DNA from: a virus
Strand: one strand, 5' to 3'
IMG/VR virus record: IMGVR_UViG_3300042475_001686
Coordinates: 53,493-117,492 of that record
DNA: 64,000 nucleotides
Position numbers and translations under genes: made by a program. Shown here piece after piece: positions 1,804 to 48,376 of the stretch. Numbering within the stretch: the stretch's first letter is position 1; each line of letters begins with the position of its first letter. Below the pieces are notes generated by a model that was not told the origin of the DNA, did no database searches, and saw only the letters and a program-made list of their open reading frames with translations.

Positions 1804-2088
1804 TTATAGCCAATACTTTAGTATAGCAGTTAAAGCAAGAATTGTCCAGAGGATGTTGAACCAAATAATTGTGGGCAATGTCTTGACAGTTGATGACCAG
1901 ATTAATGCTAAACTAGTTATTAAAGCAATTATATAAAGCCACCAAATCTGTGTATTGAATAAAAGCCCTGGAATAATAATTGCTGCCTTGGTCATAAATG
2001 CAAAGAACTCAACAGTATTAGGTTTATTCCAATACTCTTTATGCCCCATAGTTTTTAAAGCGTTTATCCATTCTGTTTTAAAGTTCAT
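1804..2088 (-). CDS. Small multi-spanning membrane protein
   Basis: This is a 94-residue protein. A soluble N-terminus (MNFKTEWINALKTMGHKEYW) is followed by about three hydrophobic helices, roughly residues 29-43, 46-66 and 72-92. The ATG overlaps the stop of the halogenase gene (ATGA at 2085-2088), so the two are translationally coupled. No family was recognised. Co-expression with the halogenase is the only functional hint. Confidence 0.6.
   Translation of the reverse strand: MNFKTEWINALKTMGHKEYWNKPNTVEFFAFMTKAAIIIPGLLFNTQIWWLYIIALITSLALIWSSTVKTLPTIIWFNILWTILALTAILKYWL
1820..1848 (-). promoter_or_regulatory. SigA-type promoter for the glycosylase gene
   Basis: Minus strand: TGGACA (five of six consensus bases) at 1848-1843, a 17-nt spacer, then TGC-TATACT, an extended -10 at 1825-1820. 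It lies inside the 3' end of the 1804-2088 gene. It would give a leader of about 20 nt containing the AAGGAG of the gene starting at 1795. Confidence 0.6.
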
Positions 2089-3629
2089 TTTAGTGAGTCC
2101 AAAAACTTTCTATGATCAGTACACTCTGAAACCTTATAGTTCTGATAATTAACAAAATAGTCATACATCTCTAATCCAGCCTTATAATCTTTTGATAGTT
2201 CTAAGTAATTTTTTGCTATGCTCTTGTTTATTGTATTTTGTTCCGCTCCAATTTGGAACCAACTAGCACTAGCCCATGCTTTCCCTACATCAGACTTTGC
2301 TGGCAATCTATGTTGCCATACATTAATTTTTTCTTTAAGTCTTGCTGGAGCATTTTCATAAGAAAATTTTTCCCAGAACTTAGTATCTTTTCTTAAAGTC
2401 ATATAATGAAAATAAATAAAGTCAGATATGTCATCGTTCATCTCTAACATAGTTTTATTGAATTCATCTCTTCTTGCCTGGGAGTTATCAAAAAGCCATG
2501 CTGGATTATTAAAAATGTTTGTAAGTTCTGTAACACTTACCCAGATAGAAGTTGCTTCCAAAGGCTCAATAAAGTTAGCAGCAAGACCTACTGCGATGCA
2601 GTTATTTATCCATAACTCCTCATAAGATCCAGCACTAAACCTAAATCCACCCTTATCTTTTCTTGGATACTTTGGCTCATATCCTAAAAATTCTTCTATT
2701 TCTTTTACTGCTTCTTCTTCTGATATTAAAGAAGAGTCATATACATACCCGCATCCAAATCTATCCTGTAATGGAATCTTCCATATCCAACCATATTTCA
2801 TTGCTATTGCCTCTGTGTACGGTGGTATATCTTCTGTCATTTCAATAAAAAATGGAACAGCAGAGTCTTCTGGCAAAAAGTCTTTATAACTTTTCCATTT
2901 TGCATTAAAGACTTTTCCTATAATTAATCTATGAAAACCACTACAATCAAAAATAAAATCACAATAAATCTTTTCATTATTTTCTAATGTTAAACTTTCT
3001 ACATTATTATTTTCATCTAAAGATACATTAATAATTGTTCCTTCAATAAGTTTAATTCCACGAATCAGTCCTATTTCTTTTAACTTATTTGCAAGTTTAA
3101 CGGCATTAAAGTGAATTGATATAGCACCTATCTGATTATATTTGTTAATGCCTTCTTTTTCTTGGGAAAATCCAAATGACTGTTTTGTATCTTTAAGAAT
3201 AAAAGGAACCTTATTATTTTCTGAAACTTTTTCCATAAAATTGATTTCTTTAAGACTATCATTTTTTGATAATCCTGCTACCATAAAAGAACTAGTAGAT
3301 AGATATGGTTCAGATGCTGGCTCAAAACCTAAAGACCTATCAGACAAAGCAAATGCATGATAAAAAAATTCATTATCATTATTCCAATTAGTAAATTTAA
3401 TTCCATTTTTGATAGTTGCATCACAGTGTAAAATTAATTCTGATAATGGAATTTCTAAATGATTTAAAAAATCTGTTAAGAATGGTGTAGATCCCTCTCC
3501 AGCACCTAAAATTCCTATATCGTTTGATTCTATAACTGTTACTTCTAAGTCTGGGTATGATCTTTTGGCTTTGAGTGCTGTTAACCAGCCAGCAGTGCCT
3601 CCACCTACTACAACTACCTTTTTAATCAT
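2085..3629 (-). CDS. Flavin-dependent (tryptophan-type) halogenase
   Basis: This 514-residue protein shows the flavin-dependent halogenase plan. The FAD-binding GGGTAGW is at residues 9-15. The conserved GAGEGSTP is at 42-49. Lys74 in DATIKNGIKF aligns with the catalytic lysine (Lys79 of PrnA). DCSGFHR is at 228-234, the diagnostic WIWKIP (WxWxIP) at 281-286, and FIEPLEAT at 353-360 carries Glu358, equivalent to PrnA Glu346. The enzyme uses FADH2, O2 and halide to make HOCl or HOBr and halogenates an aromatic substrate through the lysine. The substrate cannot be predicted; related phage enzymes include the cyanophage halogenase VirX1. No flavin reductase gene is visible, so reduced flavin would come from the host. 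The gene overlaps both neighbours by ATGA. Confidence 0.9.
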   Translation of the reverse strand: MIKKVVVVGGGTAGWLTALKAKRSYPDLEVTVIESNDIGILGAGEGSTPFLTDFLNHLEIPLSELILHCDATIKNGIKFTNWNNDNEFFYHAFALSDRSLGFEPASEPYLSTSSFMVAGLSKNDSLKEINFMEKVSENNKVPFILKDTKQSFGFSQEKEGINKYNQIGAISIHFNAVKLANKLKEIGLIRGIKLIEGTIINVSLDENNNVESLTLENNEKIYCDFIFDCSGFHRLIIGKVFNAKWKSYKDFLPEDSAVPFFIEMTEDIPPYTEAIAMKYGWIWKIPLQDRFGCGYVYDSSLISEEEAVKEIEEFLGYEPKYPRKDKGGFRFSAGSYEELWINNCIAVGLAANFIEPLEATSIWVSVTELTNIFNNPAWLFDNSQARRDEFNKTMLEMNDDISDFIYFHYMTLRKDTKFWEKFSYENAPARLKEKINVWQHRLPAKSDVGKAWASASWFQIGAEQNTINKSIAKNYLELSKDYKAGLEMYDYFVNYQNYKVSECTDHRKFLDSLK

Positions 3630-19994: not shown

Positions 19995-20163
19995 ACTTTT
20001 TAACCTTTTTATATCCAACTTTAAATAACTGAACTTCGGATAAATGTTTATCAGAACACATCCAAGATGCCATTCCAGTTGATGAATAGATTCTAATAGT
20101 TTTGACTTCTTTTTTACAAGACCTACAAGGAAATTTTCCTTCATAGATTGAATACTTATCCAC
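19987..20163 (-). CDS. Small zinc-finger protein, GTG start
   Basis: GTG at 20163, eight bases inside the recA end, opens a 58-residue frame (MDKYSIYEGKFPCRSCKKEV...) that ends 8 nt into the next gene. CRSC at 13-16 and MCSDKH at 35-40 form a CxxC...CxxxH metal site. The YEGKFPC start resembles a small phage protein seen next to recombination genes. Its role is unknown. Confidence 0.7.
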   Translation of the reverse strand: MDKYSIYEGKFPCRSCKKEVKTIRIYSSTGMASWMCSDKHLSEVQLFKVGYKKVKKYE

Positions 20164-21169
20164 TAATTTTAGCCTTAATCATTTCTTGTAGATCAAGATC
20201 CTCTCTTACTCTATTAACAAATCCTTCTCTACCTTGCACCTTAGAGCCATCTGGCAACAAATACCACGCTCCTGTACGTTCTACAATTCCAACTAATTCA
20301 GCAGTGTCAACAAGATCAGCGACCCCATCAATGCCCAGGTTATCGCCTCTAAAATAGAAATCATATTCACCAGACTGAAAAGCAGCACTGGTTTTAGAAA
20401 ACTGTAGTTCCCATCTAACCTTTCTACCAACCTTTTCTTCAATAGCCTTGTCACCAACATATATTTTTCCTTTCAATGCTTGATTATCTGATTCAGACGA
20501 AAACAACTTAACAACAGTAGAAGAATAAAATTTAGTAGCCTGTCCACCTGTTGGTTGTTGGCTTGTGTACATTGCGTTAATATTATTTCTAGATTGTGAT
20601 ATTAGAATTAATAGTGTTGGCTTTACTTTGTTATTTGCATAATTAAGCATCTTCCAAGCGTTGCTAAAATCTCGTGACTCTGCGCCAATCTGTTTTGTAT
20701 TTTCTAGTTGTTTTAATTCTGTAGAATCTTTTTCAAAATAAATAGCAGGCAATAAAGATGTAATAGAATCAACAACAATAATATCTACACCAGCCTCTAT
20801 AAGATTAACACCTACGTCTACCATTTCATTAATAGTTCTGGCTTGAGAGACAATCAACTTTGATGTATCTACTCCTAATTTTTCTGCCCATGTTTTATCA
20901 TATGACATTTCAGCGTCGATCCAAGCACAAATTTTTCCTTCTGCCTGCGCTAATGCAATTGTCTGCAAGCATAAAGATGACTTAGCAGATGACTTTGATC
21001 CCCAAATTAATACCTGACGACCATAAGGCAACCCACCATTTAGAGCACGATTAAGTCCGTAACTTGGTGTTGCTGCGTATTCAGTCTTTGGCACCTCATC
21101 TCCTACCAAGATATTCTTTCTTAACTTAGGATTAAGTTGTGCTAATACATCTTCAACGCTAACCGACAT
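20156..21169 (-). CDS. recA: RecA/UvsX-type recombinase
   Basis: The 337-residue protein has the RecA core. The ATP-binding loop GSKSSAKSS is at 57-65, where the usual Gly before Lys is Ala. A DAEMSYDKTWAEKLGVD segment and a Walker B with IIVVDSITSLLPA (about 130-142) follow. Then come the L1/L2-like RNNINAMYTSQQPTGGQATK and a C-terminal domain. It pairs homologous DNA for recombination-dependent replication. It overlaps dnaE by 11 nt, with GGAGGATG upstream. The altered Walker A is described in the findings. Confidence 0.92.
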   Translation of the reverse strand: MSVSVEDVLAQLNPKLRKNILVGDEVPKTEYAATPSYGLNRALNGGLPYGRQVLIWGSKSSAKSSLCLQTIALAQAEGKICAWIDAEMSYDKTWAEKLGVDTSKLIVSQARTINEMVDVGVNLIEAGVDIIVVDSITSLLPAIYFEKDSTELKQLENTKQIGAESRDFSNAWKMLNYANNKVKPTLLILISQSRNNINAMYTSQQPTGGQATKFYSSTVVKLFSSESDNQALKGKIYVGDKAIEEKVGRKVRWELQFSKTSAAFQSGEYDFYFRGDNLGIDGVADLVDTAELVGIVERTGAWYLLPDGSKVQGREGFVNRVREDLDLQEMIKAKISG

Positions 21170-26318: not shown

Positions 26319-26324
26319 ATTATA
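26319..26324 (-). promoter_or_regulatory. -10 box, leaderless configuration
   Basis: The minus strand reads TATAAT (preceded by CAG rather than TGn), with 7 nt before the ATG at 26311. It lies over the 3' end of the dnaB-like gene. The -35 match is poor, so confidence is modest. Confidence 0.4.
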
Positions 26325-27546
26325 CTGACTTATCTTCATAATCCTTATACCTATAGTATCCCTTGTCAAAATCGGCTTGAACTAAGAATTCTCCCATAAA
26401 ACCATTACGGTTCTTGCGAAATACGCATTCAATAATATCGCTATTATTTCCTCTACCCAGCGCAAGCACCCAGTCTGCATCATAAGCAATCTGCCTTGAC
26501 CATGCAGTTTGACCAAGGGTTGGCACGGTTTCAAGTTTAGTAACGTCATCAGGTGTAGCAGATGAAATAGCAATAATTGGTACCTCTTCTGCAATAGCCA
26601 TAAGTTTGAGTTCACGAGACAAATTCTTCATACGAATAGTTTCATTATCTGACTTTTGATTAGGAGACATCAATTGTAAATAGTCAACAATAACAAAGTC
26701 TGGTTTATATTGATCAATCTTTCCTCGTAGCACTAATGGAGTAATATCTCCCCCAGTATCGTTAGAGATAATATGAAACTCTGGCTTTCCAGTAACATGC
26801 TTTGTATGCCAAGACTTAAGCATATCCATCTCAACCTGACCAGCACTTAACTTTCTATGAGACCAAACGCCCTCTCCCATAATTGCAAATACACGATTAC
26901 GAACTTCTACCTCAGACATTTCAAGGCTTATGATCATTGGGCTACGACCCTGTTTCCAGGCCTGTACAGCGAAATAGAGAGACAACCACGACTTTCCTAT
27001 GCCTGGATATGCAAGGAAGACTCCTAACTGCCCTGGCATGATTCCAGAAGGAAGGTAGTTATCAAATCCTGGAAGGCCAGTCTTAATTCCTAATGCACCA
27101 GCCTCTTGTTGTTTCTTAAGATTTTCAAAGTATGCAACAGCAGAGTCTAAGTCTGTTACATCAATATCACGAATGGCTGCTGTATTTTTTCTAAGTTCTG
27201 CAGTTTTTGTAATTAAAGATTCTAGCGCATCTAGTCCCTGTCCACCCTGAACATCTGTTGCTGCAGATCTAATAATATCTTTTAAACTATTTGTTAAATA
27301 TTCTGCCTGCAACTCTTCAAGGTGATGCTTGGTTGCGCCAACACCGCTTATGGGTTCAAAGTCTCTAAACTTTTCTACAACTAATTCTGTTGGTGGAACG
27401 GTAGCATTTGCTTCATAATATTTTCTGATAAACTGCCAAACATCTACATGCGTTGTTAGAATATTTTCTATATTAGCCTGGAGCAAAACATGCGCTTGCT
27501 TATCTTGTAGCACGGCTGAGATTAGTTTTGACTCTGTATTATTCAC
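26320..27546 (-). CDS. DnaB-type replicative helicase
   Basis: The 408-residue protein has an N-terminal helical domain and a RecA-like motor. Walker A is AYPGIGKS at 179-186, followed by ISLEMSEVEVRNR at 206-218. Walker B is FVIVDYLQLM at 284-293, and an Arg-finger region (RNRNGFMGEF) lies near the end. It unwinds the fork 5'->3' and recruits the primase. The Walker A differs from the common DnaB GxxGxGKT by Tyr-Pro-Gly-Ile, but the GKS is intact. It overlaps the upstream gene by 8 nt. Confidence 0.9.
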   Translation of the reverse strand: MNNTESKLISAVLQDKQAHVLLQANIENILTTHVDVWQFIRKYYEANATVPPTELVVEKFRDFEPISGVGATKHHLEELQAEYLTNSLKDIIRSAATDVQGGQGLDALESLITKTAELRKNTAAIRDIDVTDLDSAVAYFENLKKQQEAGALGIKTGLPGFDNYLPSGIMPGQLGVFLAYPGIGKSWLSLYFAVQAWKQGRSPMIISLEMSEVEVRNRVFAIMGEGVWSHRKLSAGQVEMDMLKSWHTKHVTGKPEFHIISNDTGGDITPLVLRGKIDQYKPDFVIVDYLQLMSPNQKSDNETIRMKNLSRELKLMAIAEEVPIIAISSATPDDVTKLETVPTLGQTAWSRQIAYDADWVLALGRGNNSDIIECVFRKNRNGFMGEFLVQADFDKGYYRYKDYEDKSV

Positions 27547-35717: not shown

Positions 35718-36358
35718 TATACCTCTTCCAAAGTAACCGAAATATTCCAAAAGTCAAAATTACTATTTCCACGTTTTACAACGTTATAACTAAAATCAGC
35801 AAAATACATTTGTACTAATTGATTATATTGTGGAAGGTGTGCATAAGCATCATTATCTTTTCCAAAATTAGAATACTTATCATAAGCAAGATAGACCCAA
35901 AATGGACCTTGGTGATTTTCATACCAATCTAAAATTTCTACACCGCCTGCGCCACCATCGCTTGTGTACTCTAAATTATTTTGTCCGCCATGCGGGGACT
36001 TACCAGTTGTAGGATTAAACTCTGGAACTGTAAAGTATGATCTTGAGGGAAGCATATCCCATGAAGTTGATAGAGTTAGTTTATCGGCAATGTGATAAGA
36101 TCTCATTCTTCCGTTAATCATTCTTTCTCTTGTTTCAATTCTTTTAATATTAAAATCTAATGGACCTCTATTATCATCAGACAATATTAAAAATTGATTA
36201 TAAACAGATTCGTCTGTTTCTGAACCTGGATCTTGGCCTACCTCTAATCCATTTGGAATATACAAACCAGAAATTAATGTGCCAGAGTTCTCAGACCATA
36301 GCATTGCCTGTGGTCTACCATATTTTTTTCTACCTGTCATGTATGATGATGTTGACAT
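35717..36358 (-). CDS. Distal-tail-like protein
   Basis: This 213-residue protein follows the tape measure gene (TAATG overlap), the usual place of Dit. It contains GLYIPNGLEVGQDPGSETDE, DWYENHQGPFWVYLAYDKYS and a beta-rich C-terminus ending FDFWNISVTLEEV. Homology to Dit by sequence is not evident; order gives the assignment. Confidence 0.6.
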   Translation of the reverse strand: MSTSSYMTGRKKYGRPQAMLWSENSGTLISGLYIPNGLEVGQDPGSETDESVYNQFLILSDDNRGPLDFNIKRIETRERMINGRMRSYHIADKLTLSTSWDMLPSRSYFTVPEFNPTTGKSPHGGQNNLEYTSDGGAGGVEILDWYENHQGPFWVYLAYDKYSNFGKDNDAYAHLPQYNQLVQMYFADFSYNVVKRGNSNFDFWNISVTLEEV

Positions 36359-39300
36359 TATATTCTGGCTCCTCTAAGTCTCTTTGAATCTACCTGCTTA
36401 ATGTGACTCATTACTGCCCGTGCAATTTCATCAGGGTTTGCATCAGACTTAACATTTACACTAATACTATAATTATACACTGAGTCTCCAACTGAGTCTC
36501 CATTGTTTATTGCCTTCATCTTATCTACACCATAATTTTCAACTGCGTAACGACTCATCACAAACTCACCTGGAGTTAGCATTGCTGGAACTATGTCTGT
36601 TCCAAGTGATAATCCGCCCTTTGCAAAATATTTAGTTGGAATTAATCCTCCAGAACTTCTAAATGCCATTCCGCCATAAGGATTAATCCAAGCCCCTGCT
36701 CTTGCTGCTCTTTCTTCCGCTTCTCTTTCTGCTGCTGCTTTTTCTGCTGCTGCTTTTGCTTCTGCTGCTGCTTTTGCGGCTGCTGCATCTGCTTCAGCCT
36801 TTAATCTTGCTTCTTCTCTTAATCTTGCTTCTGCTGCAGAATCAGTAGTAGATCCTGTATTTCCTGTATTTACAGTACCACCTTTAACCCATCCTCTATT
36901 GTCGTCCCATTCATAATCTCCAACTGGTTTAGGTGGTTTTGTCCATCCGCCTTTACCGTCTGAGATCCAGGCAGCGCCAGGTTGTTTTTGGTTATTAGTA
37001 TTAGTATTACCAGTGTTGGTATTAGTATTGCCAGTGTTAGTGCTGGAACTACTTGAACTACTAGAACTGCTTGAACTGCTAGAGCCACCAAGATCTATAG
37101 TTGTTATATATCTTGTAATGTTTTCTGTAATATTTCTTATTTCATTAATTATGGTTTCTGTTTCTACACTATCTGGAATTGCATTTATAGTTGCTAAAAT
37201 TGATGTCCATGAAGTATCTGATGCTGATGCTGCTGCTGCAGCACCTTCCATTGCTAAAGCATAGGCTTCTGCTAAACCTTCTATTGCCTCTAACTTTATA
37301 ACCATATTTTCATAATCTTCTAAAGTCATGCCAGCACTGTCATCGATGTCTTCTGCTGCATCAACTATACTTTGTAGATATTGTTCCTGTTGGAATAAAT
37401 TATCTTCTTGATCTTGATATTTCTTTACTATTTTTTCTTGTTCGGCAAGATTTGCTTTTGCTGCAGTAACTTGTGCCTGAGCAGCAGTAACTCCTTTTTC
37501 AGCCTCAAGTACAGAAGCCTTAGCAGCAGCAAGTTCGGCCTCTGCTGCTATTTTTATCTTTTCAATTGCTGCAGCACGGCCTTCTTCAATCTTAGCAATA
37601 TTTGCTTTAATAGTTTCGATTTGTTTTTCTAATTCTAGTCTTGCAGGATCATTTTCTAATTTATAAATTGCCTGACTAATCTGGAACTGTCTTTCAGAAA
37701 TTTGTTCTCTGGTCATTCCAGTTTCTGCGCCACGCAAAGAATTAAGTTCATTCTTTCTGGCTTGTTCAAGAGATGACATCTGAGCATTTGCCATTCTTTC
37801 TTGTTCTGATGCTCTCATTTCCTGTGCTGCTCTTGCTGCTGCTGCTATATCACCTTGAGATAATGCATCTGCTAAACCTAATTGCTGCTGTTGTGAGGCA
37901 GCAATATCTTGATTAATTTCGTTTACTTTTTGCAATGCTTCTAATTGTTTATCATATTTTTCATTAATTGATTCAGCCTGATAATCCATTATTGCAAGAT
38001 CATTATTTAATTTATCAGATTCCTTATTTAATTTATCAACTTCATCTTGATATTTAATCTTAATTTGTTTTTCAATTGAATCTATCTTATCTTCTTCTGC
38101 TTTTATTAGGTTGTCTATTCTCTTATTTTCATTATCAATTGCTTTTTCTAAATTATCTTGAGCGGCATCTAAACGATCTTGGGCAGCAGATAAAGCATCT
38201 TCAGCAGAAGATAAAGCATCTTGAGCAGCATTTACATTGCCTTGTAACTGACTTGCTCTTTGTTGTGCTAACCCTAATGTTTGAGCATTGGCTGCTCTTT
38301 GTTTTTGAATTGATGCAAGTGTTTGTCCTGCTCCGATTTGAGGAATTGCAAGACCAGCAGCCTTATATCTTTCTGCCACAGTAGCCATTGCTTGCTGCCC
38401 AATATTTTGTCCACCAACCTGTTTTCCAGTTTTTTTATCTGTTCTTATTGCTGTTGTAATTCCTGGTAATTCTGAAAGAGTCATATTAGAGTATGCAAGT
38501 TTTCTGGCTTTCATAACCTTTTGTGCTGCTTCAAAACCTGTTCTTGCTTGTTCTGCAGGACTTGATGTAGCAAAATCTATTGCAACTTGTAGTTTTGAAT
38601 TTGCTTTTATTGCATTAAGTCCATCTACTATTTCTTTTAATCTATCCCTAGCATCTGCAGCGCCAGACTCATAATCTTGCATTGCAGCAATTGCTGCTGA
38701 AAGTTGTTCTGGATCTTTTATAATATCTAACATTGCACCCTTTGACAATGTTATTCCTTCCTTTGACATCTTTTGGAAGAATTCTAAAACCTTTGGAACC
38801 TGTTTAATGTTTGCAGCCTGTTCTAGCGCCTGAGAGCCTTTTGAAATAAGACCATTAATTCTCTCTCTTATAACTACCTGATTGTTAAGTGCAGCATTTG
38901 TTTTTAAATCTTGCTCTGTAATTTTTCCATTTGCAATTGCAGAAGTAGTATATTCATCTTGTAAAATTCTTTCAATAGCAGTAGCACTATATCCAAGGGC
39001 AACTAACTTTCTTCTTGTTACTTCTTGCTCATTAAGAATTGCTAAAGACTTACCAGCAGCAGTATTAAACTCTCCAATAATAGCAGCATCAAAAGCCTTT
39101 GACATTGTTTTTGCATTATCAGCAAGAACAACATCTCCAACCTTTGCACCCTTTGGTAATAGTTTTTTACCCTTTGGATCAAATGGATCTACGACTCTTC
39201 CTTTATTTTTACCTCTTTTTATTTTGGTAGTCGCAGTCTTCATAAACTTGGCTTGTTCTGCTGGATCTAAATTCATTAACCAGTCAGCGAACTGCCTACT

Positions 39301-42300
39301 AGCGCCAATCTTTTCTAGTTGTTGCTGAATGCCTTGATACTTATTTGCTATTGATTGAAGGTTGCCTGATGCTAAGGCTTTGTTTAATTCTTTTATACCG
39401 CCAGAAGCGTCGATTGCAGCGTTACGAACATTTTTTAATCTTGCAAGAATAAATGCATATGGATCTTCTTTCTTACCGCCACCATCGCTAGGACCTTTAT
39501 ACTTTCCGCCATCTTTAGTATAGATTTTTCCATCTTCGCCAACATAAGTTTTTGCTGCTTCTGATGCAACTGTTGTAGCGTCACTTGCAGCAAGTTTGCT
39601 TGATTCTGCATTATATGTTAACTCTCCAACAGCCTTTGCTGCAGTTCCAGTTAAACCTTTTGTTGCTGCCTTTGCTTTTTCTGCAGCAATTTTTCTTGCC
39701 CATTCTATTTTTGCTTCTGGGCTTGCGAATATAAGATCATATACAGTTTTATATTTTGAAATTGCTTCTTTCTTTGCAACGTCTGGAAGTGCATCCCAAT
39801 CTTTCCACTGAGACATTAATGTTTGCATGCTGCTCTTATTGATTCCAGCAATACCCATTTCTGTTATTTTTGCAATTGCCTCTTTAGTTATTGGAGTTGG
39901 TACTTGCTCTATCTTGTCTAAATCATTTGCAAGTTTCTCTAATCCTTCTATACCTTGAGCCTTTATAAAGGCCTCCATGTTAATTTCTTTACCATCCATA
40001 ACTGAAAGTTGTGCAAGTGCTTTGCCTATCTTATCAAATTGTGCTGGATCTTTACTTATAACATCTGCAGACATTTGCATAGCAAGTTCTTTATTATCAA
40101 AATCAGTAAAGAATTCCATCATCTCTACAGTTTTTTGTGGGCCATGAACTTCCATGCCCATATTTAATGTGTTGTAAAGATCTCCTTCTTTGCCTTCAAA
40201 CATCTTCAAGAATGAATTAAATTGATCTGGGTTAGCAAATCCTTGTCCCATTAATACGTTTGCAACAACTTCGAGTTCTTGAGCCTGCCCCATGCTCTTG
40301 AATCCTCTACTAGCAAAATTAGTACTACCGCTTACACCTGCAAGTTTTTGTTGTACAACCTTTGTCATTCCTGGAAAATCAGTTTTGTATCTTTCTTGTA
40401 CAGATGATTTTAATGCATCAAAGTATGCATCTTCTTCAGCATCTCCACCAAAAATTGCAGCACGTGTATTTTGAATATTTTCTCTAAATGTTTTAATCTC
40501 TGATTGAATTTGATCATTAACCTTTTTATTCATTTGAGAAACATCTGTTATCATTTGAGAATCTAATTCTGCAATCTTGGACTTTAGTTCTAATTGTTTT
40601 TCAAGATTAGTTGTTTGTGCTAATTGTTTTTCTAATAACTGTATTTGCTTTTTATATTGCCATTCTGTAGCGTCTGCCTGTGCCTGTGCTAACTGTACAT
40701 TATTAACACTTAATGCTGCAAGCCTTGCTGCAGAATCTCTTCCGCCACCAGCACTTAATGCTTGTAATTCTGACTTTGTTCTTTCGCCTGCTTGTTGAAT
40801 TATTTTCATTCTAACTGCAAGAGGATCTTTTGTTAAATCTTCCCCATTGGCGCCTATAATGCTATCAAGATTGCCTAAAATATTTACTGTATATTTTCTG
40901 CTTCCTAACTTAACTCCGATTTGTTCTGCAATGCTTGCTGCTTGCTCTGGAGTCAATACTCCATCTGAAATATATGAGGCTAACTGCAAACCAAAACTTT
41001 TAGCAGCATCCCTGGAGCCAAAGTCTTCCATATTTTTAACAAAGCCTTCAGCCATCTTTTTACCAACATCTGATTGTAAAAATGTATCTCCAAACCTTGA
41101 TCCAGCACGTCTTACATCGTTATAATCATTGAATGAACCCTTAGATCTTACTTCCTGCATTGCACGTGATGCGCCAACCTTGTTTGTTATAGCGCCAATT
41201 TCTTCCATCTTTGTTGTAGTAGCAGAAACTGAATTTACATATTCCGCCTGCTTTTTTGCTGCATTTTCAAAATGTTTGTTCAATGCAAACAAACCAGTTC
41301 CGACGGCTATTGCTGCTGTAGTTACCAAACCAATAGGACCCATGCCAGCAAACATAGGAGCCATACCAGCAACCGCAGAAGCACCCATAAGCCCCATGCC
41401 CATTCCAGTATTTCCAGACATCATAGCAGCCATACCAGCCGTTCCTAGGGCCATTGAGGCACCACCAGAGAATCTTCCTACCTTCTCTTGACGCATTGCT
41501 TTAGCATTATTCTTTTCTTGTTTAGCAAGTTCTTTTGCGCTTAATTGTCTTGTCTGTCTGTTCTTTAATTCTTCTCGCTCTATTTGACTTTTTCTTCTAG
41601 CATTAGCGTTATTGACTTCTTCTTGTACCTTTATTTTTCTATATCTTCTTAAAGCGTCGTCAATTTGTTGTTTAGTATATCTATTTTGTTGCTGTAGCAA
41701 TCTTTGCTGATCTTGCATCGCCTTTGTAATACGACCTCTTGCAGCCTTACTTAATGTTGGATCTCCAGCATCTCTTCCTGTCATAACAAAGCCACGTCCA
41801 AGACGTCTTACTTGAGTTCCTGTCGCTACTCTATTTGTTGATGTTTCTGTTGCAACTCTTCTATCAGTTGACTTTCCAGTATCTGCAACTGCTCCTGCTG
41901 GCTTTGGACTAGTATTAGCAGTGGTAAGTTTTGTTATTGCTCCTGTTTTAGTATCAACCATGTATTCTTTATTAGGATTTACTAAAACATTTGTTCCTTT
42001 TGTAGCCCCGCTTGCCAAATTAAATTGTGGTCTCCATTGATTGTAGTATCCTGTACCAAGTCTTCCATCAATTAATTCTGCTACTGCTCTAGACTGTCTT
42101 ACTTCTCCTAGTTTAGGAAATGCCTTTGGCTTAGTTGTTTGGCTCTTTAGAAAATCTTCAGAAATAATATCAAGTTGTGCTGCTGCTCTAACTAACTTAA
42201 CTTCAGATGTGTTGGTCGGATGATTTTGACCAGACATATAGGTTGCTGAGTTTCTAAATTCTTTAATTTGATCTGGAGTTAATCTTAAAGCATTATTGTT

Positions 42301-45300
42301 TTTATCATTCCAATCTAATATGTTGGTTGCTCTTTTACCAGCATTCATATAATTATTTAATAATCTTACGTCAAATAGTGCAGTTCCTTTAAGCCATTTT
42401 GCAGCACCTCTTCCTGACTCTCCTGTTTTTGCTATGTGGGATAGTTCTGGTCTTAATGCTTGAGCAATTTGTTTTTCTGTATATCCTAAAGATCTCATAG
42501 ATTCTTTTACTGATTTTAATGGATCTACTTTACCCTGTACAGCATTTGCTGCTTTAAACTGTTTTTCTTGTTCGTCTAATGTTTTATACAGTAATGAGTT
42601 TGTCGGAATAGCCTGTCTCCATCCACCACTTTGCTTTCCTGTTGGACTCATGTCGAATCTTAACTTAGAAAGATTCATCTTTTTAGGATTAGAAAATGCT
42701 CCACCCTTTTCAATTGCACCTAATCTATAAAGAACTCTCTTCTTAACCTCATCATATGTCTTTCCAGCAGTTAAAGCATTAGCGCCAGAGTCTATAGATT
42801 TCTTATCATAATAAAGTCCATCTTTGTATACTAATTCATTATCAATATACTTTAACATTTCATGCTGTGTTATATTAGATGGCGTAATACCTTTTTTATT
42901 TAATAGTTTACTAACCAACTCATATTGCTTTGGATTAGATGTTTTTAATTTTTCAATTTCTTCTAAAGCATCTTTTCCTAATCTTTTAACAATTGTATCT
43001 ATTTGACTTCTTGACTTAGGATCATTTTTTAATTCATCAAAAGTTCCTAAAGCAAATTTTTCATAACTAGATAGTTTTGCTCTTCCCTTTTGTGGATCAT
43101 TTCCTTCTTCAAAACCTGGGACCTTGTCTTGGAACATTGCAGTAATAAGGCCACGATACTTCTCTGATTTATCTGCAGGAATAATCGCTTCTCCTGGAGA
43201 AACAAATGCTGGAATTATATCTCCAGCACCCTTTGGTCCAGGAACACTTATAATACCATCTTCAAATCCTACTCTACCCTTTGGAAGTTTAGATACTGCA
43301 CCTGCTGCACCACGAACTCCTCCTGCAAATAACGCAGGATTTTGTGCAGCCATATTTCGCATTTGTGTTGTTATTTGTCCATACGCTGCTGCTAATTGCA
43401 TTGCTGCAGTACGCTCAATATTAAATACTTCTGTTAGCCTAGTATGAGTATTATGAAGTGCCTGACTTGCTGCCTGTTGCTCTAACTGCTCTTGTGTTAC
43501 ATAGTTAAAGCCAGCACCTAAAATATTTGTTTGTCCATTTAACTTAGCAACTCCACCTCTTATTGTTGCAAAAAGTTTAATAAGATTTGCTAAACCATTT
43601 GCTAACAAACCAAATGTCATCAAAAGAATTGGACCAAGACCAGCAACTACTCCAACAATTATTGCTATTACTTTTTTTGTTTGATCTCCCAAACCATTAA
43701 ATTTTTCAAATAACTTACCAAAAAATTGTACTATTGGTGTGACTGCTTCAAGAAATGCCTTTCCTAATGGCATGATGTCTTGCTTAAATTGTTCTACTGC
43801 AGCCTGAAACTTTACACCTACAGCATCTTCTACCTTCTTCATTTCTCGTTCTGATAGAACTGCTAACTCTTCAACTGATGCCCCTGCTAAATCAAATGCT
43901 CTTGCTGCCTGAGTTCCATCCTTGGATACATTTTGAAATAAGGTAGACAAACGAGCAAACTGGAATTTTCCAAATAATTGTTCGATGGCACGTGCACGGT
44001 TAAGTGGATCTAAGGTATCAAGTGCTTTTGCAAAACCAACTACTGTAGCCTTAACATCACCTTTATTTGCTTCAACAATTCCTTTGATATTAATTCCCAT
44101 TTCGCCAAGCATCTTGCTTGCTTTTTCTGTTGGGTTAATTAATGAAGCAAGACCAGACTTAAGTGCGTTAGCACCTTCTGATGCATTAATACCGCCTTCC
44201 TTCATGGCAGTCAAGAAGAATGCAAGATCTTCTACGTTACCGCCTAGTTGCTTAACAACTGGTGCTGCTTTTGGAATTGCAATAGTTAAATCTTCAATAG
44301 ATAAAACAGTTTGGTTTTCAACTGCGTTTAGAAAGTTAATTTTTTCTGCTAACTGCTCACTAGATAATCCAAATGCGTTCTGTAATGATATGGTTGTTTC
44401 AAGTGCCTGCTGTTGCTCTACTTGTCCTAGCACTGCTAACTTTGTTGCAGTTTCAACTTGTCTAGTTAAATCTTCACCCTGAAAACCTGCTGCTGCAGCC
44501 GTTGCAGCCATCTCTACTGTATCTTTTACTGCAACTCCATATTTAGTAAATTCTTCTGCAAGTTTTCTTATATTGGCTATTGCGCTTTCTACTTCAGCAT
44601 CATTAGTAAAGGCATCTCCATATACACGTCTAAACTTTAATGTAGCCTGTTCTAACTCTCTAAATGCCTTTGATGCATACCCGCCAAGCATGCCTAGTGG
44701 TATTGTTAAACCAACCATCAACTGGCGTCCAGCCCATTGAGTATTCTTACCAAAGTTTAGAAGTTGTGTAGATCCCTGCTTTAATAATTGATTTAGGAAC
44801 TGTTGTCTTTGTGCTGCATATTGGATACGTGTACCAAGTTCTGTAAATTGTCCATTTGTCATCATCAATGTACGTGGCATAATACGCATAGCATCAATAA
44901 AGCCACCCTGCGCTTTAGCCATCTGTATATACTGTGCTTGTAGTGATTTTACTCTATCTCTACGAGCACGGTTAATAATTTCACGTTCTTGTGCAAAAGC
45001 CTTGCCTAATGTTTTTGTATTGGCTGTTGCAGCAGCCATGCTATATCGATAATATTCTTTAAGGGATAGTTTATTTTTTTCTAAGGCAGTTGTAAATGCC
45101 ATAGTGCTGGACGCAACTTTTGCTTGACTGACAGCAAACTTTCCTGTTGCCCCTACGGCTTGTGCTAATTGAGCGTTTAAACCTTTTTGTGCATTTGCAG
45201 CAGCCAGGTTGCCTTCAGCAAGTGATTGATGAAACTTGCTGAGGCCTGCCTGTAGTCTGCGTAATTGTGCTAAAGCGTCGGCAGTATTAAAATTAATATT

Positions 45301-45324
45301 AATATTAGAGTTTACATCTGCCAA
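36358..45324 (-). CDS. Tape measure protein, 2988 residues, TTG start
   Basis: This is the longest gene in the window. It starts at TTG 45324 with AGAGGTG and GAAGGAA upstream, and a stop lies six codons earlier, so no ATG is available near it. Residues about 200-480 carry the TP901-type core (KFRRVYGDAFTNDAEVESAI, FLTAMKEGGINASEGANALK). A hydrophobic helix is at 552-585, and a second hydrophobic stretch follows further on. Coiled-coil regions occupy the C-terminal third, with a poly-Ser/Asn-Thr tract near 2735-2760. The 'GTDIVPAMLTPGEFVMS' C-terminal motif is typical of tape measures. Length sets the tail; see findings. Confidence 0.93.
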   Translation of the reverse strand: MADVNSNININFNTADALAQLRRLQAGLSKFHQSLAEGNLAAANAQKGLNAQLAQAVGATGKFAVSQAKVASSTMAFTTALEKNKLSLKEYYRYSMAAATANTKTLGKAFAQEREIINRARRDRVKSLQAQYIQMAKAQGGFIDAMRIMPRTLMMTNGQFTELGTRIQYAAQRQQFLNQLLKQGSTQLLNFGKNTQWAGRQLMVGLTIPLGMLGGYASKAFRELEQATLKFRRVYGDAFTNDAEVESAIANIRKLAEEFTKYGVAVKDTVEMAATAAAAGFQGEDLTRQVETATKLAVLGQVEQQQALETTISLQNAFGLSSEQLAEKINFLNAVENQTVLSIEDLTIAIPKAAPVVKQLGGNVEDLAFFLTAMKEGGINASEGANALKSGLASLINPTEKASKMLGEMGINIKGIVEANKGDVKATVVGFAKALDTLDPLNRARAIEQLFGKFQFARLSTLFQNVSKDGTQAARAFDLAGASVEELAVLSEREMKKVEDAVGVKFQAAVEQFKQDIMPLGKAFLEAVTPIVQFFGKLFEKFNGLGDQTKKVIAIIVGVVAGLGPILLMTFGLLANGLANLIKLFATIRGGVAKLNGQTNILGAGFNYVTQEQLEQQAASQALHNTHTRLTEVFNIERTAAMQLAAAYGQITTQMRNMAAQNPALFAGGVRGAAGAVSKLPKGRVGFEDGIISVPGPKGAGDIIPAFVSPGEAIIPADKSEKYRGLITAMFQDKVPGFEEGNDPQKGRAKLSSYEKFALGTFDELKNDPKSRSQIDTIVKRLGKDALEEIEKLKTSNPKQYELVSKLLNKKGITPSNITQHEMLKYIDNELVYKDGLYYDKKSIDSGANALTAGKTYDEVKKRVLYRLGAIEKGGAFSNPKKMNLSKLRFDMSPTGKQSGGWRQAIPTNSLLYKTLDEQEKQFKAANAVQGKVDPLKSVKESMRSLGYTEKQIAQALRPELSHIAKTGESGRGAAKWLKGTALFDVRLLNNYMNAGKRATNILDWNDKNNNALRLTPDQIKEFRNSATYMSGQNHPTNTSEVKLVRAAAQLDIISEDFLKSQTTKPKAFPKLGEVRQSRAVAELIDGRLGTGYYNQWRPQFNLASGATKGTNVLVNPNKEYMVDTKTGAITKLTTANTSPKPAGAVADTGKSTDRRVATETSTNRVATGTQVRRLGRGFVMTGRDAGDPTLSKAARGRITKAMQDQQRLLQQQNRYTKQQIDDALRRYRKIKVQEEVNNANARRKSQIEREELKNRQTRQLSAKELAKQEKNNAKAMRQEKVGRFSGGASMALGTAGMAAMMSGNTGMGMGLMGASAVAGMAPMFAGMGPIGLVTTAAIAVGTGLFALNKHFENAAKKQAEYVNSVSATTTKMEEIGAITNKVGASRAMQEVRSKGSFNDYNDVRRAGSRFGDTFLQSDVGKKMAEGFVKNMEDFGSRDAAKSFGLQLASYISDGVLTPEQAASIAEQIGVKLGSRKYTVNILGNLDSIIGANGEDLTKDPLAVRMKIIQQAGERTKSELQALSAGGGRDSAARLAALSVNNVQLAQAQADATEWQYKKQIQLLEKQLAQTTNLEKQLELKSKIAELDSQMITDVSQMNKKVNDQIQSEIKTFRENIQNTRAAIFGGDAEEDAYFDALKSSVQERYKTDFPGMTKVVQQKLAGVSGSTNFASRGFKSMGQAQELEVVANVLMGQGFANPDQFNSFLKMFEGKEGDLYNTLNMGMEVHGPQKTVEMMEFFTDFDNKELAMQMSADVISKDPAQFDKIGKALAQLSVMDGKEINMEAFIKAQGIEGLEKLANDLDKIEQVPTPITKEAIAKITEMGIAGINKSSMQTLMSQWKDWDALPDVAKKEAISKYKTVYDLIFASPEAKIEWARKIAAEKAKAATKGLTGTAAKAVGELTYNAESSKLAASDATTVASEAAKTYVGEDGKIYTKDGGKYKGPSDGGGKKEDPYAFILARLKNVRNAAIDASGGIKELNKALASGNLQSIANKYQGIQQQLEKIGASRQFADWLMNLDPAEQAKFMKTATTKIKRGKNKGRVVDPFDPKGKKLLPKGAKVGDVVLADNAKTMSKAFDAAIIGEFNTAAGKSLAILNEQEVTRRKLVALGYSATAIERILQDEYTTSAIANGKITEQDLKTNAALNNQVVIRERINGLISKGSQALEQAANIKQVPKVLEFFQKMSKEGITLSKGAMLDIIKDPEQLSAAIAAMQDYESGAADARDRLKEIVDGLNAIKANSKLQVAIDFATSSPAEQARTGFEAAQKVMKARKLAYSNMTLSELPGITTAIRTDKKTGKQVGGQNIGQQAMATVAERYKAAGLAIPQIGAGQTLASIQKQRAANAQTLGLAQQRASQLQGNVNAAQDALSSAEDALSAAQDRLDAAQDNLEKAIDNENKRIDNLIKAEEDKIDSIEKQIKIKYQDEVDKLNKESDKLNNDLAIMDYQAESINEKYDKQLEALQKVNEINQDIAASQQQQLGLADALSQGDIAAAARAAQEMRASEQERMANAQMSSLEQARKNELNSLRGAETGMTREQISERQFQISQAIYKLENDPARLELEKQIETIKANIAKIEEGRAAAIEKIKIAAEAELAAAKASVLEAEKGVTAAQAQVTAAKANLAEQEKIVKKYQDQEDNLFQQEQYLQSIVDAAEDIDDSAGMTLEDYENMVIKLEAIEGLAEAYALAMEGAAAAASASDTSWTSILATINAIPDSVETETIINEIRNITENITRYITTIDLGGSSSSSSSSSSSSSSTNTGNTNTNTGNTNTNNQKQPGAAWISDGKGGWTKPPKPVGDYEWDDNRGWVKGGTVNTGNTGSTTDSAAEARLREEARLKAEADAAAAKAAAEAKAAAEKAAAEREAEERAARAGAWINPYGGMAFRSSGGLIPTKYFAKGGLSLGTDIVPAMLTPGEFVMSRYAVENYGVDKMKAINNGDSVGDSVYNYSISVNVKSDANPDEIARAVMSHIKQVDSKRLRGARI

Positions 45325-45347
45325 TTCCTTCGCACCTCTTTATTTAT

Positions 45348-45674
45348 TTATTTTACTAGACCAGCAACAACTGATGCATCAGCATTTTGGAATCCAGATG
45401 CTGCATCAATTATCTGATAAACTGTAGGAAGATCTAGCAACTCCTCTAGTTGTTCTCTATCGTCTGCCAATTCTGGCTTGTATTGTTTCATTGCAATTTG
45501 AACACAGTCCATAAGGATATCCATAGACTTATCGTTATCTTCAGCAACTGCAGCCAGTTCAGCAAATTTTAGCATGAATGGTCTTAGAAGAGATAACTTT
45601 AAGGCTCTAACTGGAATCTCTGTATTATCAACTAATGTAACTGTTTTTGTATTATCTTTAGGCTTTTCGGCCAT
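45348..45674 (-). CDS. Tail assembly chaperone, short G-like copy
   Basis: This 108-residue protein has VTLVDNTEIPVRALKLSLLR, followed by CVQIAMKQYKPELADDREQL and LLDLPTVYQIIDAASGF. That is the same core as the N-terminal part of the adjacent 45725-46405 gene. It lies directly before the tape measure gene, where gpG-type chaperones occur. It should bind the tape measure and tail-tube protein during tail assembly. It has a promoter-like TGGTATAAT upstream and a strong AAGGAGG. Confidence 0.75.
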   Translation of the reverse strand: MAEKPKDNTKTVTLVDNTEIPVRALKLSLLRPFMLKFAELAAVAEDNDKSMDILMDCVQIAMKQYKPELADDREQLEELLDLPTVYQIIDAASGFQNADASVVAGLVK

Positions 45675-45699
45675 TGTTCCTCCTTAAGGTATTGAATAA

Positions 45700-45708
45700 A
45701 TTATACCA
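45700..45708 (-). promoter_or_regulatory. Extended -10 box between the two chaperone genes
   Basis: The minus strand reads TGGTATAAT. Transcripts would have a leader of about 20 nt with AAGGAGG before the ATG at 45672-45674. No strong -35 was found. Confidence 0.5.
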
Positions 45709-45724
45709 CAAGAAGACTTTATTT

Positions 45725-46405
45725 TTAGGTAAGATTTTCGTACTCAAGACCCATACCAATGCCAAACCCTGCTTTTTGTGCATTCACTCCTTGTAGTGAT
45801 AGTATGTCTTTTGAGTCTGATGCCTTTCCTTTACTGAATACCCTGGCCTTCATCTCTTCCCAGGCATTATTCTTATTGCTTGCCTTATCTAAGTCTACTC
45901 CTTGCATTGCAGCCAAAAACTTTTTCTGAGAATAGTCTAGATCTCTTTTTATTTTTAGTGTTGCTATTATTTCAGGCATTGACATTGAAGATTCTAATTC
46001 TTCATAGTCTTTCCAAATACCCAGCAAAAAAACCTCTGATTCTAATTCAGCAAGATCTAACTCATCCCAGGTAGACCCACTGTCAGTTGCCTGCTGCTTA
46101 ACTGTTTCTTCTGACTTTTCATTAATCTTAATACCAGCAGCAAAATCTAATATTCTATATATAGTTGGCATATCAATATTATCTTCTAGTTCTTGTTGTG
46201 TTTTTATTTGAGGATAATACTGTCTCATGGCTATTACTGTACATTTTGCCAATGCATCTATAGCCTCGTCATCATTTTTAGCAGACTTAACATTTTCAAA
46301 CTCATCTAAAAATAGTTTTAAGAACTTTATTTTTAATGGTGTTATATATATTTCTGTTCCGTCTATTAATTCAACAACAGCACTTTTATATATTTCTGTA
46401 GGCAT
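45725..46405 (-). CDS. Tail assembly chaperone, long G-T-like copy
   Basis: This 226-residue protein's first ~100 residues share the chaperone core with the next gene (VVELIDGTEIYITPLKIKFL, CTVIAMRQYYPQI, IDMPTIYRILDFAAGI). A C-terminal domain follows (WDELDLAELESEVFLLGIWK, RDLDYSQKKFLAAMQGVDLD). This resembles the G-T fusion that most phages make by frameshifting. Here it is one continuous frame, so no slippage is needed. TGATATAAT lies 6 nt before the ATG with no Shine-Dalgarno, predicting a leaderless mRNA. Confidence 0.75.
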   Translation of the reverse strand: MPTEIYKSAVVELIDGTEIYITPLKIKFLKLFLDEFENVKSAKNDDEAIDALAKCTVIAMRQYYPQIKTQQELEDNIDMPTIYRILDFAAGIKINEKSEETVKQQATDSGSTWDELDLAELESEVFLLGIWKDYEELESSMSMPEIIATLKIKRDLDYSQKKFLAAMQGVDLDKASNKNNAWEEMKARVFSKGKASDSKDILSLQGVNAQKAGFGIGMGLEYENLT

Positions 46406-46411
46406 TAAACT

Positions 46412-46420
46412 ATTATATCA
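46412..46420 (-). promoter_or_regulatory. Extended -10 promoter, leaderless configuration
   Basis: The minus strand reads TGATATAAT, with 6 nt (AGTTTA) to the ATG at 46405. It directly follows the terminator at 46421-46451. Confidence 0.65.
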
Positions 46421-46451
46421 AACAGAAAAGCCCAACCTTTTGGGCTGGGCT
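46421..46451 (-). terminator. Rho-independent terminator after the major tail gene
   Basis: The minus strand AGCCCAGCC-CAAAA-GGTTGGGCT forms a 9-bp stem with one G-T pair, followed by TTTTCTGTTT. Strong termination here would let the abundant tail-tube mRNA end while the chaperone promoter restarts transcription. Confidence 0.9.
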
Positions 46452-46470
46452 AATCTTATATTAAGTTGTA

Positions 46471-47094
46471 TTATGCTGGGATTGTACGATCTACGATCTT
46501 ACCGTAAGAACCGTTGTCGTTTGGAAGCAAACGGAATGAGACTTCGAACATTGTTGCCTCATCACGCTTTGCACCAACCGTTACGCTCTCGATTGAGAGT
46601 GCACGATATGCAACGTAAACTCTTTCGATTTGATCAGATGCTGCACAGTCACCAGTTCCTGGGCCAACGGCAACCAAACCACGTTCGACTGGGCATTCGC
46701 CGATGTCGCCTGCGGAAAGATTTAATGTTGGATTACCAGATACTGTTGTAAGATTCTCATCCTTGCTTGCGAGAGCAAAAAGAAGATTCTCTAATGTTGA
46801 TTCTGCGAATGTAGTATTTAGGTTTACCTGCATGCCTTGCTTGAACAACTTAGCAACGTCAAGAACCTGGTCTACTGAAACTTCACCGAAATCTGGTTGG
46901 AACTGTAGTTCCAAACCGTTCATAGTGTAACCTACGTTACGGAACCCTTCCTCATCGGAAAGAGTTGTCTTGTAAGAGACACCTGCAGAATATCCTGGAA
47001 GGACTCCTGCTTCTGGTAGAACACCGTCTTCATATGTGAAGAGTGCTGCTGCACCAACGATGATATTATTGCTAGTACCACGTGTATATGCCAT
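46471..47094 (-). CDS. Major tail (tube) protein
   Basis: The ATG at 47094 (AGAGGTG upstream; a GTG at 47103 is less likely) gives 207 residues. The protein is beta-rich (TRGTSNNIIVGAAALFTYED, VNLNTTFAESTLENLLFALA, IERVYVAYRALSIESVTVGA) and lies between the terminator protein and chaperones, as tail-tube subunits do. It would assemble into hexameric rings around the tape measure. A strong terminator follows and a promoter precedes it, consistent with high expression. Confidence 0.82.
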   Translation of the reverse strand: MAYTRGTSNNIIVGAAALFTYEDGVLPEAGVLPGYSAGVSYKTTLSDEEGFRNVGYTMNGLELQFQPDFGEVSVDQVLDVAKLFKQGMQVNLNTTFAESTLENLLFALASKDENLTTVSGNPTLNLSAGDIGECPVERGLVAVGPGTGDCAASDQIERVYVAYRALSIESVTVGAKRDEATMFEVSFRLLPNDNGSYGKIVDRTIPA

Positions 47095-47148
47095 GTATTT
47101 CACCTCTTTATTTTTCTAGAAATTAAAAGGCGTGTTTCCTCATCGATA

Positions 47149-47154
47149 ATTATA
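47149..47154 (-). promoter_or_regulatory. -10 box upstream of the major tail gene
   Basis: The minus strand reads TATAAT, preceded by TG without a spacer base, in the 71-nt gap upstream of the tail-tube gene. The same gap holds AAAAGGC (47157-47163) facing GCCTTTT (47125-47131), which could fold in read-through transcripts. A leader of about 50 nt is predicted. Confidence 0.45.
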
Positions 47155-47165
47155 CAGCCTTTTTA

Positions 47166-47705
47166 TTAGTTTACTGAGTCGATTATGTCTTGCATTTGAT
47201 GGTAGTCGTAGTCAATAATTATCTTATTACCCGCATAGGTTCGGGCTGTTCCGAAGTCGACTATATCCCTTGCCTCTTCTAATTGGTATATCTTAAAGTT
47301 ATGGAAATAAAACTTGCATTCCATACCCTCAAAAGTCTTGCCCTTAGTCCAAGCATTGAGTTCTTGGGCACTTTCGTCTCCACGATCCATTAGCCTCATT
47401 ACAGCCTCTTGTATTTTAACCATTCTTCTTTGTGGAGTTTCTCCACTTAAATCCCCATTAGCATAAAAATAATACAAAACCTGTTCACATTTAATGTGTG
47501 GGAAAGGTCCACGACGCATTCTAAACATTCTGTCCCAAACAACCATATTGCCGTCTGGAAACTGTTTTGTAAGAGTCTCTAATGTTGATGGACCTGTTGG
47601 GAAAAATGCCTCCATAGTATATCCAGCCAATTCACCAATTCTTTGCTCTAAATATTTATTAATCCACAATACTGGTGTATTTAATACTGATGTTGATTCT
47701 GTCAT
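47166..47705 (-). CDS. Tail terminator-like protein
   Basis: This 179-residue protein (VLWINKYLEQRIGELAGYTM, RMFRMRRGPFPHIKCEQVLY, EAVMRLMDRGDESAQELNAW) sits between the neck protein and the major tail gene, the standard place of tail terminators. The predicted alpha/beta mix fits that family. Its sequence itself was not recognised. Confidence 0.6.
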   Translation of the reverse strand: MTESTSVLNTPVLWINKYLEQRIGELAGYTMEAFFPTGPSTLETLTKQFPDGNMVVWDRMFRMRRGPFPHIKCEQVLYYFYANGDLSGETPQRRMVKIQEAVMRLMDRGDESAQELNAWTKGKTFEGMECKFYFHNFKIYQLEEARDIVDFGTARTYAGNKIIIDYDYHQMQDIIDSVN

Positions 47706-48376
47706 TTAATTGCCCCCGCATTTGCTACCCACTGATATCCAGCCTTTAATCCTACAGATCTTCCGCCACGTTTTCCTGCGTTTAAATTTTTTGCATAAAC
47801 CTTTGGATACTTAAAGTATTGTCCAAGACCACTTGACTCCAAAAATGATTGTCTAAAATAAACTCCAAAGAAATTAGAGATGACATTTTTAAACTGTCCC
47901 TCTGTTTGTCCTCCAGGATTTTCAACTCTAACTTCTCTTGAGGTAAATATTTCTTGTCCGTCTATTTCAAACCTTAACGCCTGTGCCTTTTTTGGCTTAA
48001 TTGTTACACCAATACCTCTTTCCATAACTTCTGCTTTATTATAAAATGGCACATTAGATCCATTCTTAATTGATGTGGACTGCTTCAGTGATGACTTAAA
48101 TGTTAAACCAATATTGCTAACTGTAAAATCAATATCAAATAATCTTGCCTCTGGGCTTCCAGTTCTATGCCATTCATATACGTGATGCAATAATTCTGGA
48201 GAAACCCTTGCATTGGCATCTATAAACTGTCCTGCTAATTCTGATATCTGTGGTCCTAGTGCTGAATACATAGCCTTCTTGCCTCTGCCAATACCCTCAA
48301 TAAATCCAGTAGAGTAATTAACTATGTTATTCATTTCTCTTTGGAATTGTTTGCTATTTATAATTAACTTTAACAT
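47702..48376 (-). CDS. HK97-gp10-like neck protein
   Basis: This 224-residue protein begins MLKLIINSKQFQREMNNIVN and contains AMYSALGPQISELAGQFIDA, HHVYEWHRTGSPEARLFDID and a basic C-terminus. The short N-terminal strand and helix followed by a beta core are reminiscent of the gp10 neck family, and gene order (after the head closure protein, before the tail terminator) agrees. Confidence 0.6.
   Translation of the reverse strand: MLKLIINSKQFQREMNNIVNYSTGFIEGIGRGKKAMYSALGPQISELAGQFIDANARVSPELLHHVYEWHRTGSPEARLFDIDFTVSNIGLTFKSSLKQSTSIKNGSNVPFYNKAEVMERGIGVTIKPKKAQALRFEIDGQEIFTSREVRVENPGGQTEGQFKNVISNFFGVYFRQSFLESSGLGQYFKYPKVYAKNLNAGKRGGRSVGLKAGYQWVANAGAIK

Follow-up and report, generated by a model that had tools for sequence, protein, structure and literature searches.

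Most tailed phages make the tail assembly chaperones G and G-T from one gene by programmed frameshift. In the lambda-type arrangement, as at the locus described here, a short and a long product have an N-terminal G domain in common, a T domain is carried by the long one, and the coding region lies between those of the major tail protein and the tape measure protein. The nearest described relatives of the present locus are the G/T genes of the Stanwilliamsviridae (Samistivirus EGole, Faustvirus TunaTartare and others) and of the Rhodococcus Trinavirus, direct homologues found in the same gene order. It has long been asked why a frameshift is retained at this place by nearly all long-tailed phages, and whether it is the ratio of the two products or the recoding itself that is important. 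The ratio needed in lambda is put by PMC5009743 at about 30 gpG per gpGT. Arrangements of other kinds have been described: some T4-like phages are said to have a separate short gene and a fused long chaperone gene (Vladimirov, Gautam and Davidson 2022, Virology 566:9-15, as cited in PMC10274946), and Microbacterium phages of cluster EA are reported to have two separately expressed chaperone ORFs with no evident frameshift (PMC7302621).

A long and a short gene ahead of the tape measure gene

The DNA considered in this study, which I will call the window, is a stretch of 64,000 nucleotides taken from a virus record (IMG/VR IMGVR_UViG_3300042475_001686, positions 53,493 to 117,492). Coordinates below are those of the window, and the genes discussed lie on its minus strand, where the order is major tail protein, terminator hairpin, a long gene, a short gene and tape measure protein. 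I will refer to the long gene as GT and to the short one as G'. GT (45725-46405; 226 amino acids) joins in a single frame a G domain (residues 1 to about 100) and a T domain (about 111-226), while G' (45348-45674; 108 amino acids) is a separate, short paralogue of the G domain. Ahead of them lie the gene for a major tail protein of the Ig-domain family (46471-47103; phrog_2175, E 1.7e-32; in synteny with the gene so annotated in EGole and other relatives) and an intrinsic-terminator-like hairpin (46429-46451). The gene for a tape measure protein of 2988 amino acids (36358-45324), at the same position as those so annotated in relatives, begins 23 nt past G'. The tail module matches that of the Stanwilliamsviridae: the genes for capsid, major tail protein and chaperones have homologues there, arranged in the same order, and the capsid protein is 40% identical to that of Streptomyces phage Belfort over 87%. 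The window also contains, on the minus strand, a nearly full-length gene for an FAD-dependent tryptophan halogenase (2085-3629; PF04820, E 6e-105) and genes for RecA (20156-21169) and a DnaB-type helicase (26320-27546). No tRNA genes were found in the window.

Both open reading frames are complete and lie where the original prediction placed them, and its claim that the short protein is homologous to the first 100 or so residues of the long one holds: a single BLASTP comparison of the two gave 39% identity and 69% positives over 85 residues (E 1e-19). The domain assignments come from matches to phrog_10504 (the "G" family; residues 1-102 of GT, E 4e-20; G', E 2.5e-13) and to phrog_10474 (the "T" family; residues 130-221 of GT, E 3e-15). 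A search of the whole 117,492-base virus record with GT returned GT itself and G' only. I have taken the ATG at 46405 as the start of GT, it being the conserved one; an internal TTG was also scored as a candidate. Median dN/dS, calculated over pairs that are not independent of one another, was 0.215 for the G domain of GT (1159 pairs), 0.055 for the T domain (401 pairs) and 0.107 for G' (465 pairs), and therefore all three are maintained.

By their position between the major tail protein and the tape measure protein, and by synteny with annotated relatives, GT and G' are predicted to be the long and the short tail assembly chaperone, respectively. Relatives carry annotations as tail assembly chaperones, some of them with a joined frameshift CDS. 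The AlphaFold models (pLDDT 81.6 for G' and 79.4 for GT) were compared to the structures in BFVD. For G', the best hit is to a tail assembly chaperone (E 1.5e-6). GT matches first two unnamed proteins (E 7e-14 and 3e-8), then the same chaperone entry that G' matched best (E 3e-4) and, weakly, the GT protein of N15 (E 0.02). One might hold instead that neither protein is a tail assembly chaperone, since the two had no credible match in Pfam or in a sequence search of the PDB, the two PHROGs are both annotated as of unknown function, and a fold search of the PDB with the G' model gave no match. Given the position of the genes, the annotation of their relatives and the fold matches, N15 GT among them, I regard that view as hardly credible.

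Fused and overlapping genes among relatives

A search of 50,697 phage records with GT found matches in 132, of which 127 were from phages of Streptomyces and five from phages of Rhodococcus. In the nine phage records that were opened, G and T occupy overlapping frames between the major tail protein and the tape measure protein, and the same arrangement, offset by -1, was found in the Streptomyces Stanwilliamsviridae, the Rhodococcus Trinavirus and many uncultured relatives. The frameshift arrangement that the original prediction had suggested looking for in relatives is thus present. The records of TunaTartare and NiceHouse annotate a joined frameshift CDS; in others T is annotated as a gene of its own. 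In several GenBank records (L156, 5423-5644; L157, 5393-5662; and similar ones) T is annotated separately with a start of its own, often as a "hypothetical protein", which is likely to be a missed frameshift annotation.

The main survey comprised 422 loci, a count to which one contig may contribute several, and these fall into two classes. In 336, a fused GT is followed by G', and in 67, G and T overlap (196 and 59 distinct sequences, respectively). The phages with the fused arrangement form a large, uncultured group. The remaining 19 consist of seven with GT only, on contigs that end within 140 nt, two that begin inside GT (L117 and L146, the latter beginning inside G and having its GT split by a frame break) and ten from the window's own record in the opposite orientation. 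A further scan added 78 loci, of which 64 had the fused arrangement, 13 the overlapping one, and one (L486) a fused GT with a G' that is broken. No locus in either the main survey or the further scan mixed the two states, and no fused locus of sufficient length lacked G', which was broken only in L486 (4405-4739), where an apparent change of frame may be either an assembly error or decay. A scan of genome contigs for prophage relatives gave 149 pattern matches and no relative, nor did a scan with the G of Rhodococcus phages find one.

The direction of change was judged from phylogenetic trees. When 96 T domains were placed in a tree, with the Rhodococcus phages as root, the fused GT proteins formed one group inside the frameshifting phages (support 89/85; 88% of 200 bootstrap trees). 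The group persists (89/97) when five nearer frameshifters are added and long branches removed (L169, L170, L347, L351 and L371 left out, every second fused row taken). Because the fused GT form one group inside the frameshifting phages, duplication and fusion most likely replaced the frameshift once. The original prediction, that gene duplication took the place of frameshifting here, accords with the overlapping, -1 relatives and the nesting of fused loci among them.

Trees of the other proteins leave more latitude. In a first G-domain tree that included the long-branched rows, G' was not monophyletic. The final tree (L347, L351, L371, L169 and L170 left out, fused rows reduced from 28 to 18, five near frameshifters added) has G' as one clade (99/91) and the G domain of GT as another (99/99), the latter on a stem branch of 0.57. 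The G of the nearest frameshifting relatives (L404, L410, L424, L425, L430, L433 and L446) stands beside G' (99/92) and not outside the two copies, although a tree with the branching that a later duplication would give is not rejected (p-AU 0.327). I read this as G' having kept the ancestral sequence, with the G part of GT having diverged. Trees of the major tail protein, rerun without seven long rows, place the two nearest frameshifters tested, L404 and L410, inside the fused group, but do not reject a single fused clade (p-AU 0.399). The tape-measure tree (L169, L170, L351, L371 and half of the fused rows left out) has the fused loci on one side of a branch, with a weak support of 24. Taken by sequence relationships, a single origin of the fused arrangement is favoured rather than proven.

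The placement of G and of the major tail proteins of L404 and L410 could also be explained if the two-gene arrangement predates the nearest frameshifters, which then reverted by recombination, or if G' came from another phage. I think either of these unlikely: the T domains of the nearest frameshifters lie outside the fused group (the 89/97 tree), simple deletion cannot turn the order GT-G' into G-T, and the topologies that a later duplication calls for are not significantly worse (p-AU 0.33 and 0.40).

If GT replaced a frameshifting gene, then the fate of the slippery site is of interest. All 67 overlapping pairs of the main survey are offset by -1, and 35 of the 49 distinct overlaps contain an in-frame heptamer of the form X XXY YYZ, mainly CCCAAAC, CCCAAAT or GGGAAAC, the last of which is present in all seven distinct nearest frameshifters. 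The other 14 (L156, L157, L160, L161, L164-L168, L171, L344-L346 and L349), of the type of EGole and Stanimal, lack such a heptamer and have CCCGGAA, possibly an unusual slip site, at the place where their relatives have CCCAAAC or CCCAAAT. Among 170 distinct fused loci, the linker of GT contains none of the relatives' CCCAAAC, CCCAAAT or GGGAAAC; 148 have no X XXY YYZ heptamer of any sort, and the 22 that do have only runs of A. The window's own linker, by inspection, also has none, and a slippery sequence near 46100, proposed as something to look for, was not found. GT is thus one open frame without a conserved slippery heptamer, unlike what a programmed -1 frameshift presents.

The A-run heptamers in those 22 loci, together with the divergence of the G domain of GT from that of G' (the stem of 0.57), would suit a different account, by which G' is a chaperone with some other role and GT continues to yield a short product through weak -1 slippage on A-runs. 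I consider this very unlikely, in view of the large majority of linkers, including that of the window, with no heptamer at all, the absence of the relatives' slippery sequences, the presence of G' wherever it could be seen (L486 being the broken case) and the retention ahead of G' of an ancestral leader layout, described below.

Initiation signals and the ratio of the two products

If the ratio of short to long product is no longer governed by recoding, then it might be governed by how the two genes are expressed. The two starts differ in a striking way. An extended -10 box, TGATATAAT (46412-46420, minus strand), ends 6 nt before the ATG of GT, while that of G', TGGTATAAT (45700-45708, minus strand), ends 25 nt before its ATG and is followed by a Shine-Dalgarno sequence, AAGGAGG (45679-45685, minus strand). 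A -10 box lies about 6-7 nt before the start of a transcript, and from the position of its box the transcript of GT is predicted to be leaderless. Neither box was listed by a scan for sigma-70 promoters, which demands a -35 element.

Both features are conserved, as the original prediction of a leaderless promoter before the long gene and a second promoter with a strong Shine-Dalgarno sequence before the short one would have it. Of 143 distinct fused loci, every one has TGnTAnnnT with its end 3-9 nt ahead of the GT start codon, and in 98 the distance is exactly 6 nt; by way of background, a box of this kind precedes 208 of 28,846 other ATGs (4-9 nt window). In a larger set of 243 distinct loci, the box ends 3-9 nt before GT in 236. 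The seven exceptions are L488, where a plain -10 stands at a distance of 6 nt, and six in which the box is farther upstream, as for a short leader. A Shine-Dalgarno sequence of at least 4 nt was found before GT in none of the 143 and none of the 243. Upstream of G', all 143 loci have a Shine-Dalgarno sequence of at least 4 nt (7 nt in 84) and TGnTATA[AC]T 18-36 nt before the start, and 239 of the 243 have both a box at 14-40 nt and a Shine-Dalgarno sequence. The stricter pattern was adopted for G' after the nearest "extended -10" in 22 loci, TGTTAACCT, was set aside as spurious.

The same signals before frameshifting G genes indicate which of the copies has changed. Of 52 distinct genes of this kind, 46 have the box at 14-40 nt and none at 3-9 nt, and 50 have a Shine-Dalgarno sequence, the two misses (L169 and L170) being wrongly picked starts; in the nearest frameshifters the extended -10 box is 30-33 nt before G. 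The leader of G' is therefore of the ancestral type, and it is GT that has changed.

Ahead of GT, 130 of 143 distinct loci carry a terminator-like hairpin, as compared to 47 of 1430 random 90-nt stretches, and such a hairpin was found before G' in only one of 143 and after G' in none of 140. The hairpin at 46429-46451 is the sole terminator-like site within 45300-47800 of the window, a region whose shuffled versions average 1.4. Because there is no terminator between GT and G', G' would be readable from both promoters. Counted over the whole record, TGNTATAMT is found at 39 places on the reverse (coding) strand and at nine on the opposite one, with controls at 7 and 9, a bias that suggests a real promoter element, the main one of the phage. 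The start codons at 54833 and 11661 (minus strand), and perhaps 58601, lack a Shine-Dalgarno sequence and are preceded, at 6-9 nt, by an extended -10 box, so that a few more genes of the window may use leaderless initiation.

The reading that I consider quite probable is that GT and G' are lambda-type long and short chaperones made from two genes after duplication, with split promoters, so that initiation rather than recoding distinguishes them. An ancestral frameshifting G/T gene would have been duplicated, the first copy becoming the in-frame GT with loss of the slip site, and the second losing T while its G product, together with promoter, leader and Shine-Dalgarno sequence, was retained. 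GT would be transcribed from its own promoter, behind the terminator of the major tail protein gene, as a leaderless mRNA, and the message from which G' is translated would have a leader and a strong Shine-Dalgarno sequence. An excess of G' over GT would then be set by initiation. As with gpG-T, GT would link the tape measure (through its G part) with the tube subunit (through its T part), and many G' per GT would coat the tape measure.

How far the difference in promoter and leader would itself set the G:GT ratio, and keep the level of GT low, as these signals lead me to infer, depends on what leaderlessness entails. In Mycobacterium smegmatis, according to PMC7148126, leaderless transcripts appeared to be roughly equal in translation to those with the sigA leader and were apparently less produced. 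Leaderlessness alone, therefore, need not mean low GT. It is conceivable, though I would give it rather less than an even chance, that duplication and fusion took place as described while promoter strength, mRNA decay or protein stability sets the ratio, or that GT is made by read-through from upstream and its -10 box is incidental. PMC7148126 also describes leader status in mycobacteria as a poor predictor of the protein/mRNA ratio, and, since a small number of other genes in the window also have their start directly preceded by an extended -10 box, the feature is not special to GT. An incidental box, however, fits poorly with its occurrence at 3-9 nt in 236 of 243 loci, with a Shine-Dalgarno sequence in 0 of 243, when 0 of 52 frameshifting G genes have a box at that distance, and the upstream hairpin speaks against read-through as the main source of GT. 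For the preferred account in its fullest form, I would put the chances at about even: that the lineage swapped recoding-based for initiation-based control of the ratio, each copy keeping one ancestral product, and that removal of the long copy's leader and Shine-Dalgarno sequence fixed a low GT:G' ratio throughout the lineage.

Comparison with known systems

The lambda-type system is one gene with a -1 frameshift; here two genes are present, of which the long one is read in a single frame and has lost the slip site. The N-termini that the two products share are in consequence homologous but not identical, unlike those from a single frameshifted gene. In the Stanwilliamsviridae and Trinavirus, the terminator, extended -10 box, leader and Shine-Dalgarno sequence before G present the same layout as is seen here before G', yet those phages have one frameshifting gene, with a leadered G and no second G, in place of GT and G'.

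Two other groups of phages invite comparison. The T4-like phages, likened here by description alone (as given in PMC10274946), have one short gene and a second, longer one in which the short part is joined to the downstream part, as in the present case. The cluster EA phages of Microbacterium express two ORFs separately, and the account in PMC7302621, so far as it goes, describes no fused long copy with a paralogue. A search of the open-access literature on chaperones, frameshifting, duplication and leaderless actinophage messages found nothing on this lineage or on a leaderless switch. Separate short and fused long chaperone genes are thus already reported, from the T4-like phages as PMC10274946 cites them, and it is for the lineage and the leaderless switch that this search of the open-access literature found no earlier account.

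I know of no report of a promoter or leader layout for the chaperone genes of T4-like phages. The lineage described here differs from them in that its sister lineages still frameshift, so that the change can be placed on a tree. It amounts to a natural experiment, with close relatives that have the frameshift and others that do not, and it shows how a recoded gene may become two ordinary genes. The candidate replacement, leaderless versus Shine-Dalgarno initiation, is concrete and can be tested. For those who annotate phage genomes, the lesson is that a frameshift should not be forced where two paralogues do the job that, in lambda-type phages, falls to one recoded gene.
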